DNA from: a virus
Reading direction: 5' to 3' (one strand)
Virus record (IMG/VR): IMGVR_UViG_3300021963_000141
Coordinates: 1-60,081 of that record
Length of the DNA: 60,081 bases
Shown: positions 26,701 through 38,193 of the stretch, in pieces
Layout of the letters: each line of letters opens with the position of its first letter
Numbering within the stretch: position 1 is the first letter of the stretch
Translations under genes and position numbers: made by a program
The notes under the pieces: generated by a model
Told to the model about the DNA's origin: nothing
Databases searched by the model: none
Seen by the model: the letters and a program-made list of their open reading frames with translations, nothing else

Positions 26701-29700
26701 TTTCTGGATAGTTAAATTTATGAATTCCACTTCCAGTAGAAGTCAAATTGATGTATTGCTTGGTATCATAGTAAAAAGATGTGGTAATTCCCAAAGTTCC
26801 AATTCCAAGTTGAGATAACTTAAATTGATTATCATCTATTTTGGTAATATAATATGAAGTGTTAGAGGACAGTCCTCCTATTGATGTTTCTGTGGCATTA
26901 TAGACAACAATCTCACCACTTTGGTATCCATGTTCAGATATTTCAATAATATCTGAAGAGGTATTGATACCACTAATACTAGTAGTTGTTAGTTTATTTT
27001 GATAATTTATTCCACTATTTTCTATGGTAATAGAACCTATTTTTTTCTTTTTTTCTTTTGACTTAAATGAGTGATTTCCTATTCCATAGGATGTTAGACT
27101 TATCGTATTAATACCTGATACTGCATCTGAAAAAGACTTATGTAGTTTTACATTGAAACCATCCTGAACAGAAACGTAGTATGAAGAATTTGTAGACAAT
27201 CCTCCTATAGATGCCTGCCCATTAGTTACATAGATTACTTCCTCAGAATCTCTGAATTTATGATAACTTGAAAATCCAATTTTATTAGTTGGATTTAATT
27301 TAACTAAATCTGCTGACCCCTGAGAATTAAATGAAGCAGAGTGGTCAAAACTAACTAAATTTACAATTGCTGATGCTCCAGTCCCATTTCCACCAACAAT
27401 GCTAATTTTTGGATCATCAAGATAATCAAATCCAGAGTCTAGAATATCAATTCTTTCCAATCCACCAATTACTGAACAATTTGCAGTGGCTCCAAATCCT
27501 ATGGGGTCCACAATTGTCAATACAGGAGGATTAATAATATCATAATCAAATCCAGGTGCTATTGGAATAATTTTTTCGATTGGTCCATAGTATACGTTGT
27601 CATTAGATTTATAATTGAGAATTTCAACACCATTTATAAAAATACCAGTTAATCCAGGATTTGTTTCATATGAATTTCCATCATTTTCTGGATTTATGAT
27701 TTTTCTAATTAACTTTTGCGATTCTAATAACTGTGTACTTAAATCTCTATAGGTAAATTCTGTTAGTTCAAATTTTGCGTCAATGACAGTTCCATTAACT
27801 GAAACAAAATTTTCAGTAAAAATATTACTTCTACTTCTCGCTAGTTTTATTTGAGTGCCACTTACCTTTTTAACAAAATAAACACCAGTCGCTATTCCCA
27901 AGTTAGTCTGGGATGTTGGTTTATAAACGACAGAATCTCCAGTATAAAGGCCATGCTGTCCAATATTTAAAGTTGTTCCACTGAAAGATCCACTAAAAAC
28001 TATTGAACGATCATTTATTTTTAAGGTTTGATTTAGATAAGATGGTAGTGATGGTGAAGAAACATATAATGCATTATCATTTTCATAATAAACATTTTGT
28101 ACGTTTGATGTATATTTGTTTACTAAAGGATAATTTTGTGATGATACTTTAGATACGTTTTTCTTAGCAGTATAAGTTATACTTGTGTCTAATAGTGGAC
28201 TTTCTGAACCCAGTTGAATACTAAAAGACTTTTCATTGATAAAAGAACCAACAAAACCAGTGTATTCTACTCCACTTGAAGACAAAAGTGTTACAGAGTT
28301 TCCAACTTTAAAGAAGTGATCGTCAGAAAGAATGACTCTATAAGATTTATCAGAACTATCTAAAAGTTCTATAGACTTTACATCATATTTTACAGGAATA
28401 TTAAAAAACCAGTTGTTTGATTTGTAATCCTTTAAGTCTATTCCAAGAGTTTTTATTTTTATGCTATCATTTTTAGAATAAAAACGAGTATTATCTGGTA
28501 AATTAAATTCGGAAAGAACACCAAGAATTCTAATTTTTGTTTGACTTGTAGTTCCAAGTCCAACATAACCATATGCATATTCATTTGTTTTTATTTCAGT
28601 AGAATCTGGAATATTTTGAATTATTCCAGTACAACCTAAAAATTGATTTAATGTTTTTGTTTGATATGTGATATTTAAAGAAGTTCCATTTTCAAGATCG
28701 ACGACGAGATTTCCATTCTCTAGAGGAAATCCTACGGTGGAATCTACTTCTAACGTTTCTGACCCAGAGGGTGTAAAAGAAAGTGTTTTTGTTTTAGGGT
28801 GAACTGTAAATTTACCATAAACACTCCCCCTTTCTACGCCAATGTCTTTAATGTAATCATAATCTAAACTTATGGTGTAATAATTTTTTGAACCCCTTAC
28901 AATTTCTTCAACTTTTGTAATTGTTCCCTGAGCAATTATTTTGTCATCATATTTTTCATAAAGAGTTTTATTAACCAAATCTTCTGGATTACCTTCAATC
29001 TTTTCTACAACTAAATCGGAAGTAATTCTATACTGAGCATCTGATGGTTGTATTAAATAATCTCTTGGTTTTATGACCTCAACATTTTGACCATAAAGTG
29101 CTCCAAATAAAATTTTAAATGAATTATCCGTACCTTTTGATGAGTAAAAGTCTATTGACTGTTTTATGAATAGACCTTCATTTAACTCCGAATATAAATC
29201 TCTCTCTTCAAAACCTGGAGTTACTTGTTTTTTAACCTTAATCAAAAATTCTTTGAGAAAAAGAATACTTAAATTAGTAACTGTTGCTCCTGTGAGATGT
29301 TCTTGTGCTTCAGTTTCAGTAAATGTTAATTCGTCTTTAATTTTATAAGAAGTTACTCCACTAAATCCACGTACACAACCTTGAAAAGTTGTGGAAGTCT
29401 TCGAAGTATAGGTAATGATTTCAGAATCAATTAAAAGTAAACCATATGATTCTGGAAATCCAGCAGTTGAACTTACATTAACTGTAGAATCAAAAAAAGT
29501 TACGTTTGATGTTAAAGATGTTGAATCAACTAAGTTAGTTAATCGATCAATCTTAATATATTGATCAATATTCTGAAGTATATCACTTACGCCACCCTGA
29601 TTTTCTAGTGAAGTATAATACTGCGATAAAAATTCTGAGGCAAGAGGAAACTCTTCTAGAACAAACTGAGGTAGTTGATTTTCAACAATTGAACTGATTT

Positions 29701-31634: not shown

Positions 31635-32036
31635 TTATCGTGTTGGCTGGAGTGCAAATGTTAATTGTTGAGGTAAAACGTTAATACCTACAATTCTATA
31701 AGTTATAGTTACATTGAATTCATTGTTTTCATAATTTGGTGCAACATCTACTGAGATTAACTCTACCCTTGGTTCATAGTTTTCAATAGTATTTTCAATT
31801 TCATCCTTAATTACGGATGCAGATATGTCGTCAATGTTTTCAAAAAGGGAACGACTTACTTTTGAACCTAAATTTTCGTTAAAAAATCGTTCTCCTGGAT
31901 AAGTAAGCACCAAATTTCGAATAGAGCGAGCAATAGCGGTCTCATTTTTCAGAGCAATTAAGTCATAGTTGAGTGGATTGACCTGAAAGGTCATACTCAG
32001 GTCCTTAAATCCTTTACTGACCCGCTCTAACGGCAT
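31635..32036 (-). CDS. 25: gp25 baseplate wedge (gpW/gp25 family)
   Basis: 133 aa, the family's usual length (T4 132). It carries the gpW/gp25 pattern: F-Q-V-N-P-L-N-Y-D-L, then N-E-T-A-I-A-R-S-I-R-N-L-V-L-T-Y-P-G-E-R-F and F-N-E-N-L-G-S. It completes the wedge and contacts the sheath. First gene of the gp25-gp6-gp7 set, with its own late promoter box 21 nt upstream. Confidence 0.96.
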   Translation of the reverse strand: MPLERVSKGFKDLSMTFQVNPLNYDLIALKNETAIARSIRNLVLTYPGERFFNENLGSKVSRSLFENIDDISASVIKDEIENTIENYEPRVELISVDVAPNYENNEFNVTITYRIVGINVLPQQLTFALQPTR

Positions 32037-34264: not shown

Positions 34265-34408
34265 TTATTTTGTTACCGCATTATATATCAGTACAAATAA
34301 AAATCCAACAGTGCCTCCGAATATCGTAAAGCACTGTCGTGGATATCTTATTAACCATCCTGCAAAGACAACCTTCCAGAAGTTCCAATAAGGATATTTT
34401 TTCTTCAT
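34265..34408 (-). CDS. 47-aa single-pass membrane protein
   Basis: M-K-K-K-Y-P-Y-W-N-F-W start, two hydrophobic stretches (residues 10-20, and 28-43: F-T-I-F-G-G-T-V-G-F-L-F-V-L-I-Y) and a short polar tail. The ATG overlaps the stop of the HNH endonuclease gene (ATGA), so it is probably co-translated with it. Too short for functional assignment. Confidence 0.65.
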   Translation of the reverse strand: MKKKYPYWNFWKVVFAGWLIRYPRQCFTIFGGTVGFLFVLIYNAVTK

Positions 34409-35475
34409 TGAATAAATCGAGATGTTACAGTTTCTCTATGATGAATAATATCATCATTAATAGAATTTTTAACTAATTCAAGTACTTTCAATATCCTAGA
34501 ATCTTTTTCATTTTCAATTAATAACTCAATTTCTTTTATTTTATGTTTCTGCCATTCCAAATGACATTCTTCAGTTGAATCAAAAGATCCGAGATAACTT
34601 TTTCCAATCCTTGCATTATATCTAATATTCTTCATTTTTGTTGGATTAGATAAGTTTACTCCAAGAGGATACTTTCCTCTTTTTTTAAAACTTAAAATAT
34701 TAATTAAATTATAAGAAGTTATCACACAGTTTTCTGGACAATATTCATTACCTTTAATTAAGTAAAATATTGAATCTTTATCAATTTTTTGATTCTCTAT
34801 CCAAATCTTAAATCCTGAATACTTTTTCCATTCCTCACAAATAGTTTTATTTTTTGTTTTACACTCCTTCAATATTCTTAACCATCTTTTATAAGTCGGA
34901 GAGTGTCTCCCTTCGAATTCAACATCATTAACTCCAATACTATAAGCATAATCCTTTTTTAAAGAATTGCTTACCTTTCTTAGATATTCTTTGTCTCTTT
35001 TCCACGATGCTTTATTTTCTTCAATGGACATCCATTCCAGATTACTAACATGATTGTTTAGTTTATTTCTATCTTTATGATCAATTGAATCATAATTGTA
35101 AGGATTTGGAATAAATGCCTCTGCTACTAATCTATGAATATTTGCCTTTCTTTGACGCAGATATTTTCCATTCTCATCCCGAAGCGTGATATTAATGGAA
35201 GGATACTGATATTTTGTGTGGGCAGGATTTCCTCTCAGATGTGTATTCAGAGGTATCAATCCATACTCATTTAATTCTGTATACCTATCATATTTTCCAG
35301 GCGCTCTATATGCTTTTCCCTCATCACTAATGTAATATCCAGGATATTGGGTTTCTCTTATATTCTCCGGAATTTTTATAGGGGGGAATTTTGGAGGGTC
35401 GATTATATTATACCTGTTCTTTAGATAATATCTTCGTTTTGCCTCTTTCTGTTTTTGTGGGTCTTTATATGGCAT
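34405..35475 (-). CDS. free-standing HNH homing endonuclease with AP2-like DNA-binding tail
   Basis: 356 aa. Basic N-terminus (Y-K-D-P-Q-K-Q-K-E-A-K-R-R-Y-Y), a NUMOD4-like segment (Y-P-G-Y-Y-I-S-D-E-G-K-A-Y) and the HNH core H-R-L-V-A-E-A-F-I-P-N-P ... I-D-H-K-D-R-N-K-L-N-N near 112-140, with N-L-E-W closing it. The C-terminal G-V-N-L-S ... Y-L-G-S-F-D-S-T-E-E-C looks like an AP2-type DNA-binding unit. Such enzymes spread by cutting alleles that lack them. It sits at the border of the structural block and the accessory array. Confidence 0.9.
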   Translation of the reverse strand: MPYKDPQKQKEAKRRYYLKNRYNIIDPPKFPPIKIPENIRETQYPGYYISDEGKAYRAPGKYDRYTELNEYGLIPLNTHLRGNPAHTKYQYPSINITLRDENGKYLRQRKANIHRLVAEAFIPNPYNYDSIDHKDRNKLNNHVSNLEWMSIEENKASWKRDKEYLRKVSNSLKKDYAYSIGVNDVEFEGRHSPTYKRWLRILKECKTKNKTICEEWKKYSGFKIWIENQKIDKDSIFYLIKGNEYCPENCVITSYNLINILSFKKRGKYPLGVNLSNPTKMKNIRYNARIGKSYLGSFDSTEECHLEWQKHKIKEIELLIENEKDSRILKVLELVKNSINDDIIHHRETVTSRFIQ

Positions 35476-36434: not shown

Positions 36435-36471
36435 TTGGGGAAGAAAAGTGTTGTTGAGGGGTGAACTGTTG

Positions 36472-36481
36472 CCCCCCCCCC
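36472..36481. repeat. homopolymer run of 10 C
   Basis: Ten C on the plus strand (G10 on the coding strand), the longest C/G run I noticed in the window. It sits between repeat copy 1 and the 59-aa gene. Prone to length change in replication and in sequencing. Confidence 0.9.
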
Positions 36482-36528: not shown

Positions 36529-36702
36529 TCACCAACGGTCAGGTGTACTTAAGTCCTCAACGTAAGCATCACACTTCTCTGCAGGTTCCAACTTGAATAA
36601 CTTCTCCCAGTCAATCTGATGTGGGTCGAAGTCAGGAAACGCTTGAATGTCTAGAGTGATGCGATAACGAACCTTCTGTGCCTGGTTGTATGCTACTGAC
36701 AT
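36529..36702 (-). CDS. 57-aa hypothetical protein
   Basis: The frame is open upstream, but ATG at 36702 is preceded by AAGGAG at 8-nt spacing and by a near-consensus promoter, so this start is preferred. Sequence starts M-S-V-A-Y-N-Q-A-Q-K-V-R-Y-R and has an acidic C-terminus (E-K-C-D-A-Y-V-E-D). Not recognised. Confidence 0.65.
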   Translation of the reverse strand: MSVAYNQAQKVRYRITLDIQAFPDFDPHQIDWEKLFKLEPAEKCDAYVEDLSTPDRW

Positions 36703-36729: not shown

Positions 36730-36758
36730 ATTGTAAGATGCTGGGCGGATTTTGTCAA
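36730..36758 (-). promoter_or_regulatory. sigma-70 promoter TTGACA-17-TACAAT
   Basis: Minus strand -35 TTGACA (36753-36758), 17-bp spacer, -10 TACAAT (36730-36735), 28 bp upstream of the start at 36702. A CATAAATA late-type box (36772-36779) lies slightly further upstream. Confidence 0.75.
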
Positions 36759-36904
36759 TGAGTCTGGGGATATTTATGAGGGACCTGTGTATTTTTGTGC
36801 GGGATGTGTGGGGATTTTGTGACGGGGCGCTTGACAATTTCTTGGAGGTGTGATAGCTTGCAGGCAAAGATCACAAGGTCCAGAAGGATTTAAATGACTA
36901 TAAG

Positions 36905-36968
36905 TTTTCCACAATTCTAACAGTTTTTCCACACATTTATTATACTTTTTCCACAACATTGTGGAAAA
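36905..36968. other. cluster of four DnaA-box matches (TTTTCCACA)
   Basis: Three direct copies of TTTTCCACA (36905-36913, 36925-36933, 36947-36955) and one inverted copy (36960-36968) in 64 bp. The nonamer fits TTWTNCACA and is the form I recall as the cyanobacterial DnaA box. Spacing is 20-22 bp, and AT-rich DNA lies on both sides. It lies in the 326-bp gap between the minus-strand gene at 36702 and the plus-strand endonuclease at 37029. Could be an origin, a DnaA-regulated promoter region or a DnaA sink. Confidence 0.7.
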
Positions 36969-36994
36969 CTAATATCATTATTTCAACACTTAAA

Positions 36995-37002
36995 TATAAA
37001 TA
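36995..37002 (+). promoter_or_regulatory. late promoter box TATAAATA before the GIY-YIG gene
   Basis: Exact late consensus on the plus strand, 27 nt upstream of the ATG at 37029; one of the few plus-strand promoter matches in the window. Confidence 0.65.
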
Positions 37003-37028
37003 ACGCAAGTATATTTTTCATCAATTCA

Positions 37029-38042
37029 ATGGCATATATCTATTCAATTACCAACCTTGAGAATAGCAAACTCTATGTGGGAAAGACTACTCAACCCAAC
37101 CCATATGATAGATGGAAGCAACACTTACAGAACGCAAGAAGTAAGGATAATTTAGCAGAGAACAATTCAGTTCATTCTATGCCTATTGTTCGTGCCATAT
37201 GTAAATACGGAGCAGACAACTTTAAGTTTAGAGTATTGGAAGAATGTAGTGATGATGATGTTAATGAACGTGAAACCTTTTGGATAAACAAACTTGATAC
37301 TTGTGGTAAGAATGGGTATAACATTACGTTAGGTGGTGATGGTGTAAAGAAACCACGAAAGTATTGGGCAAATCATCCACATTCTAAAGCAGTGAGTTGT
37401 TATACATTAGAAGGTGAATGGGTTAGAGACTATGAGAGTGTGGGAATTGCTGCTGATAGTTGTGGAAATAAAAAGGGAAAAACTGGGATAATTGCTTGCA
37501 TTAAAGGTACGACATTTCAAGCACTTGGATATAGATGGGCGTGGAAAGGTGAAACTCCTAAAGTAATAGAGAAAAGAGTAAATGTTCGTGGTGTTGTATA
37601 TGGTATCAATCCAACATTAGGACGTAAAAAGATGTGGAAATCTATGGCAGATGCAGCAGAAGAAATACAAGGAAATCGTACAAATAATCACGCTATTCAT
37701 CACTCACTTAACAGTCCTGACAATAGCAAATTACAGGTAAAAGGTTGGTATTTCTTTAGATCAAAACCAACAGATTGGACACCAGCAACAAAAGCACATT
37801 CAATAGAACACTATAAAAAAATTGCTGCAATTAGCAATGAAAAGAGAAAGAAACCTGTCTATGGTGTGAGTATTAAAACCAATGAAATTGTGGAGTTTGG
37901 TAGTATGAGTGAGGCATCATTTTTTATTAAAGGTGAAGGTAACTATAGTGGAGTTGCTAATATCAAAAACAACATTCAACGTATAAACAATGGGCAAACT
38001 TGGTGCAATGCTTATGGTTATAGATGGTATGAAAAAGCATAA
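37029..38042 (+). CDS. GIY-YIG homing endonuclease on the opposite strand
   Basis: 337 aa. N-terminal nuclease domain: A-Y-I-Y-S-I-T-N (position of GIY), K-L-Y-V-G-K-T (position of YIG), R-W-K-Q-H catalytic Arg region and the conserved Glu in N-E-R-E-T-F-W-I near 79-86, then G-Y-N-I-T-L-G-G. The C-terminal half has NUMOD-like DNA-binding repeats (K-A-V-S-C-Y-T-L-E-G; K-P-V-Y-G-V-S-I-K-T-N-E), each ending G-Y-R-W. Free-standing mobile gene; its reversed orientation and flanking terminator support insertion between units. Confidence 0.92.
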   Translation: MAYIYSITNLENSKLYVGKTTQPNPYDRWKQHLQNARSKDNLAENNSVHSMPIVRAICKYGADNFKFRVLEECSDDDVNERETFWINKLDTCGKNGYNITLGGDGVKKPRKYWANHPHSKAVSCYTLEGEWVRDYESVGIAADSCGNKKGKTGIIACIKGTTFQALGYRWAWKGETPKVIEKRVNVRGVVYGINPTLGRKKMWKSMADAAEEIQGNRTNNHAIHHSLNSPDNSKLQVKGWYFFRSKPTDWTPATKAHSIEHYKKIAAISNEKRKKPVYGVSIKTNEIVEFGSMSEASFFIKGEGNYSGVANIKNNIQRINNGQTWCNAYGYRWYEKA

Positions 38043-38045
38043 AAA

Positions 38046-38063
38046 AGAGGGTATAATCCCTCT
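38046..38063 (-). terminator. terminator between converging genes
   Basis: Six-bp stem AGAGGG / CCCTCT with loop TATAAT. On the minus strand TTTTTT follows, ending the unit of repeat copy 2. On the plus strand it directly follows the GIY-YIG stop and is followed by CTCTTTATT, so it may serve both. Confidence 0.85.
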
Positions 38064-38067
38064 CTCT

Positions 38068-38193
38068 TTATTGATTCTCAGTAGCAAAAGTTTCGATTCC
38101 GTTGATTGCTCGATTGCCTAGATTTGCAATCCCATTGAATCCTACTGTTGAAAGAATGATACCAGTGATAACTCCAATCAGAAACTTAGACAT
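38068..38193 (-). CDS. 41-aa membrane protein
   Basis: M-S-K-F-L-I-G-V-I-T-G-I-I-L-S-T-V-G-F start gives a single N-terminal hydrophobic helix; the tail is polar. Overlaps the upstream gene (TAATG). Similar tiny proteins occur in cyanomyophages in my recollection. Last gene before a terminator. Confidence 0.7.
   Translation of the reverse strand: MSKFLIGVITGIILSTVGFNGIANLGNRAINGIETFATENQ

Follow-up and report, generated by a model that had tools for sequence, protein, structure and literature searches.

The window, by which we mean the whole stretch of 60,081 bases analysed here, is a fragment of a T4-type cyanophage. Matches to Kyanoviridae (including S-SM2 and S-SCSM1) were obtained for its terminase large subunit, for genes of the baseplate wedge and for many small ORFs, which agrees with the initial annotation's view of the phage as T4-type. 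That annotation had drawn attention to three direct copies and one inverted copy of a nonamer within 64 bp of a divergent intergenic region. All four copies of TTTTCCACA are exact (36905–36968) and they do lie between divergent ORFs, one on the minus strand (36529–36702) and one on the plus strand (37029–38042). The region contains the following features:

31635–32036, minus strand: gene 25 (baseplate wedge); landmark common to other cyanophages
36529–36702, minus strand: 57-aa gene, phrog_12516; conserved neighbour of the module in the relatives compared
36730–36758, minus strand: promoter TTGACA-N17-TACAAT of the divergent 57-aa gene, by sequence pattern
36831–36859, plus strand: outward promoter of the sigma70 type, TTGACA-N17-TAGCTT, directed through the boxes; same place in relatives
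36866–36878, plus strand: leader AAAGATCACAAGG, directly 3' of the outward promoter; conserved in the relatives compared
36899–37028, no strand: AT-rich stretch holding the boxes, candidate unwinding region; 24% GC
36905–36913, plus strand: DnaA box 1, exact match to TTTTCCACA
36925–36933, plus strand: DnaA box 2, TTTTCCACA, starting 20 bp after box 1
36947–36955, plus strand: DnaA box 3, TTTTCCACA, starting 22 bp after box 2
36960–36968, minus strand: DnaA box 4, TTTTCCACA inverted, starting 13 bp after box 3
36995–37003, plus strand: TATAAATAA, resembling a T4-type late promoter and belonging to the GIY-YIG gene; outside the module
37029–38042, plus strand: GIY-YIG homing endonuclease gene (domain match PF01541), adjoining the array
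38041–38070, minus strand: leftward terminator-like hairpin GAGGG..CCCTC beside a T run, read by eye

The AT-rich flanks reported earlier are real: 36899–37028 has a GC content of 24%, compared with 36% for the whole window, and falls in the lowest 1.4% of the window's 130-bp stretches. The promoter that had been suggested between the boxes fares less well. The TATAAT exists (36939–36944), but it is on the minus strand and does not point toward the GIY-YIG gene, and the conserved outward promoter sits upstream of the boxes instead. From its sequence, a transcript starting at this outward promoter is predicted to begin at about 36866 and then to cross the boxes. The leader is comparable to GCTAAGAYNACAA of other cyanophages. 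The boxes are 4.9 kb away from the start of gene 25 at 32036. Two minor features of the surroundings are an intergenic run of ten Cs (36471–36480), which may reflect sequencing or assembly uncertainty, and an HNH endonuclease gene among small early genes (34405–35475, minus strand), a second likely mobile endonuclease less than 3 kb from the site.

The four-box cluster is not a product of chance, because the approximate probability of four boxes in 64 bp is about 1e-9 (P = 9e-10), with about 1.5 copies of TTTTCCACA expected in the whole window. Sixty order-2 Markov simulations of the window never placed even two copies within 100 bp of each other, and this is the window's sole 9-mer with four copies inside 120 bp. 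The initial annotation had proposed counting the nonamer elsewhere; the 60,081-base record holds no exact copy outside 36905–36968. Boxes 3 and 4 form a perfect 10-bp inverted repeat with a centre of 2 bp, and the outermost boxes (1 and 4) sit in a 17-bp inverted repeat (94%). The window has no Rfam match.

The initial annotation had taken the nonamer for the cyanobacterial DnaA box, and the literature bears this out: most cyanobacteria have TTTTCCACA as their DnaA box consensus, and for several of them experiments back it up (PMC4674748). How the boxes vary points the same way. Around exact boxes (387 distinct contexts), nonamers at offsets of 12, 20, 21 and 22 were exact copies in 640 of 9300 cases, compared with 70 of 18,520 at control offsets. 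Nonamers with a single mismatch numbered 57 at offsets 12 and 20–22 and 8 at control offsets, the commonest being TTATCCACA, which is the general bacterial DnaA box. In-register variants led by TTATCCACA are to be expected of a DnaA array. Together, the identity of the boxes and the pattern of their variants suggest that host DnaA would bind the array. A pattern scan of bacterial genomes found TTTTCCACA triples in many cyanobacteria and also in clostridia and others; hence, the box is not specific to one phylum.

The initial annotation had staked its reading on conservation of the boxes in relatives, and they are kept both in cultured phages and in close relatives. We counted exact TTTTCCACA in 23 cultured cyanomyoviruses (4.5 Mb), where it is rare (81 boxes, or 1.8 per 100 kb). 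Nevertheless, 12 of the 23 genomes carry at least one pair within 60 bp (S-SM2, Syn9, Syn19, Syn33, Syn1, S-SM1, S-SSM5, S-ShM2, S-PM2, S-RIM32, P-SSM7 and P-TIM68), compared with an average of 0.10 genomes and a maximum of 3 when the same numbers of boxes are placed at random (20,000 trials). All 21 close pairs lie 1.6–7.6 kb upstream of gene 25 and none lie elsewhere. The 8 kb upstream of gene 25 contain 40 of the 81 boxes versus 3.3 expected, although the 8-kb limit was set after the data had been seen and the genomes are related, which makes these figures descriptive. The clustering upstream of gene 25 is a large effect that extends over several genera. The close relative G002 (204,829 bp) has the homologous cluster as its sole one, 4.4 kb upstream of gene 25.

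In the pair-bearing genomes that were checked, with the exception of P-TIM68, an outward TTGAC-like element and a GCTAAG-type leader precede the boxes, in an orientation opposite to that of the genes. The −10 hexamer is weak in this wider group, and we therefore refrain from calling the element a sigma70 promoter there. Box clusters are absent from several cultured relatives, and six isolates without exact pairs also have no one-mismatch box clusters near gene 25; such relatives may rely on different blocks, or else the site is dispensable. One IMG/VR record (L402; G003, 284,050 bp) has two box clusters (29317–29434 and 239066–239129) and two gene 25 copies, and is therefore probably a join of two phage genomes.

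These counts bear on the idea that the many copies of the array in an infected cell soak up host DnaA and thereby stop initiation on the host chromosome. Clustered high-affinity consensus boxes would suit such a function, as would the high copy number that phage genomes presumably reach. Titration, however, requires neither a fixed place nor a promoter, and what we observe is just three or four boxes at one fixed place per genome, next to a conserved promoter, with no enrichment of boxes otherwise (81 in 4.5 Mb). We regard titration as quite improbable.

Searches with the 57-aa protein of the window and its S-SM2 homologue returned 160 loci, which we reduced to 111 distinct upstream regions. 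In 106 of these 111, the outward promoter keeps a similar distance to the 57-aa gene; its spacer is 17 or 18 and its −10 mostly fits TANNNT (the rows compared were anchored on TTGAC and the −10 was left unanchored). What follows the promoter differs between loci. By a rough assignment from sequence patterns, 37 loci carry TTTTCCACA boxes (class A), 35 carry repeats of the ATTCTCAA or TTATTGATTCTCAATAA type (class B), 22 carry a TTGATACGAATTCATATCATTATCA-type block (class C) and 17 carry others, including the CTCCACAGATACTAC...CACTAAGTAACTC type (class D). An AT-rich element recurs 3' of the block in all repeat classes. The boxes belong to a conserved intergenic module that consists of the outward promoter, a repeat block and AT-rich DNA beside the 57-aa gene.

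Within class A, 34 of the 43 intervals between direct boxes measure 20–22 bp and four measure 12 bp. In 26 of 37 loci the last direct box is followed, 13 or 14 bp on, by an inverted partner that has no more than two mismatches. In many relatives the equivalent of box 4 is degenerate. We considered RNA structure as the conserved feature and rejected it: the inverted box decays to TGTTGAAAA or TGTTAAAAA while its partner stays exact, and base pairing is therefore not the property that is kept.

Another observation concerns the exchange of the repeat block. Among close relatives (L320–L399, L469–L548) it is swapped between at least four sequence classes while the promoter and the AT-rich element stay. 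A locus that is 97% identical to the window in the flanking 255-aa gene (L328) has a class C block. In the genomes tested, the class C motif is present as a single copy, which lies at this site, and the same is mostly true of class B. By eye, some class B and class C blocks look like Fur-type palindromes. We rejected a single universal motif at the site, given that the repeats found there differ from one relative to another. We also rejected a tie between repeat class and phage lineage, the classes needing 34 changes on the tree of the 255-aa gene; support in this tree is low, its well-supported branches force just about three changes for each of the first three classes (A–C), and the flank may have recombined.

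Exchangeable blocks raise the question of whether the binder is DnaA at all. Classes B to D must be bound by something else, and one can imagine related binders whose specificity shifts from phage to phage, in which case a phage-encoded initiator or regulator would have sites that happen to equal TTTTCCACA. Yet the class A sequence is the host DnaA consensus, its in-register variants follow the tolerance of DnaA with TTATCCACA first, and the same box recurs in different genera of cyanophages and next to other genes. We regard it as quite improbable that class A is bound by something other than DnaA.

DnaA could also act here as a regulator of transcription, a role that is established in other systems. 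Bound 40–100 nt past the outward promoter, it would block or time a non-coding RNA or affect the divergent early gene, and no replication would start. Two promoters diverge at the site, and in most relatives the boxes lie 71 to about 140 bp past the −35 hexamer. However, the distance from the promoter to the first box varies widely among relatives (71–209 bp), the boxes are downstream of the promoter and not over it, and three or four evenly spaced boxes with AT-rich DNA exceed what an operator needs. We consider control of transcription unlikely, and both it and titration fit less well than a replication origin.

The gene adjoining the array deserves separate attention. The boxes and a late promoter stand directly 5' of the GIY-YIG gene, homologues that are 79–97% identical keep the boxes, and I-TevI is known to repress its own gene, so one could argue that the boxes are an operator or homing site of the endonuclease. 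This explanation has a negligible chance of being right, and we rejected it, since boxes occur without the gene: it is absent from 26 of the 34 distinct class A viral contigs with boxes and from S-SM2, which has the boxes, and more distant homologues of the gene have no boxes. In relatives without the insert, the hairpin terminator comes after the AT-rich stretch; in the window, this terminator resumes after the GIY-YIG stop codon, and the gene was therefore inserted between boxes and terminator. It is an optional insertion beside the array and is not needed for it. GIY-YIG genes of different families (26–97% identity to that of the window) have been inserted repeatedly just past the repeat block, at 37029–38042 in the window and at L324, L325, L335, L348, L354, L359, L382, L399 and L504. 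The site behaves as if it were a hot spot for homing endonucleases.

What, then, is the array for? An origin, titration and a DnaA-controlled promoter are inseparable by sequence. We favour the origin because there is one conserved place per genome and because of the promoter and AT-rich anatomy: the promoter is predicted to read into the box site, the boxes lie within an AT-rich element, and the genomic position is single and conserved. A further point in favour is that in most relatives no coding sequence follows in the direction of the outward promoter ahead of the leftward terminator. We infer origin activity of the module from this anatomy and from analogy with T4 origins. Our judgement, held with slightly better than even confidence, is that the four boxes form an array for host DnaA within a candidate origin of replication, used early in infection by a T4-type, Kyanoviridae-like cyanophage. 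Its conservation suggests that many T4-like cyanophages may begin replication at a defined site with the help of the host's own initiator protein.

Under such a model, host RNA polymerase would start at the outward promoter (36831–36859) early in infection, and the transcript would pass through the boxes into AT-rich DNA. Host DnaA would bind the array of three direct boxes about two turns apart and one inverted box. DnaA and the transcript, the latter as an R-loop as at T4 oriF, would then open the AT-rich DNA, upon which the phage helicase-primase and polymerase could load and start the first round of replication. Recombination-dependent replication would take over afterwards. GC skew gives the origin reading no support: there is no switch at the site in G002, Syn9, S-RIM32, S-SM2 or Syn1, where skew tracks the gene strand. 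T4 oriA and oriC also lack a skew switch (PMC3016281).

The candidate origin can be compared with known ones. T4 oriF and oriG are defined by a promoter and an AT-rich unwinding element, the R-loop transcript priming leading-strand synthesis, while at oriE an early promoter is accompanied by regularly spaced 12-nt repeats whose role is unproven (PMC3016281). As at oriF and oriG, the cyanophage promoter would fire into AT-rich DNA. OriF adjoins gene 25 and the cyanophage site lies upstream of gene 25; however, the cyanophage site is kilobases away and differs in its orientation to gene 25, and oriF has a MotA middle promoter and no DnaA boxes. The likeness to oriE consists of an early-type promoter beside evenly spaced repeats and a syntenic place that is kept in related phages, whereas the cyanophage repeats are host DnaA boxes with a spacing of 20–22 bp. 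By its sequence, the module combines elements of the oriF/oriG type and of the oriE type, with host DnaA boxes as the repeats. We know of no use of host DnaA at T4 origins.

Cyanobacterial chromosomal oriC, with its TTTTCCACA boxes near dnaN (PMC4674748), shares with the phage array the nonamer, its clustering and AT-rich surroundings; unlike oriC, the array has no adjacent dnaA or dnaN, has fewer boxes and has a strong predicted promoter reading through it. A third comparison is with plasmid and prophage origins such as those of P1 and RK2, which contain iterons and host DnaA boxes. They too have directly repeated sites for an initiator, set some two helical turns apart and bordered by AT-rich DNA, but no cognate Rep initiator gene was identified here, and ours is a lytic phage of the T4 type.

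Host DnaA boxes as such are familiar from the origins of other phages and of plasmids. T4-type phages, by contrast, are the textbook case of replication independent of the host initiator, and to our knowledge the use of the host's starter at a specific start site is undescribed for them. We found no report of DnaA boxes in cyanophages in the literature searched, subscription papers lying outside it. If our reading is true, a host-DnaA array would tie the replication of many of the abundant T4-like cyanophages to the host's control of initiation, and its recognition cassette would be exchanged in nature. It would also provide a concrete origin for T4-type cyanophages, for which the literature otherwise mentions just the single theta origin predicted earlier for Syn9 (PMC2984593).

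Two points weigh against the origin reading: DnaA boxes are not indispensable, given that in relatives they are swapped for other repeats or that clusters are absent, and DnaA itself is dispensable in some cyanobacteria (PMC7198777). The latter is also one possible reason for the swapping of blocks. A broader proposal, which we put forward tentatively and consider rather doubtful as a whole, is that T4-type cyanophages share a family-wide origin upstream of gene 25, in which a promoter and AT-rich DNA are combined with an initiator-binding cassette that can be exchanged. One large group would recruit host DnaA, and close relatives would swap cassettes, possibly to match hosts that do or do not need DnaA, or to escape nucleases that target the origin.

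Finally, TTTTCCACA arrays with fixed spacings (12, 13 inverted, 21–22) are present in many other viral contigs that have no phrog_12516 neighbour (e.g., L027, L039, L041, L023 and L281), often together with a similar leader.
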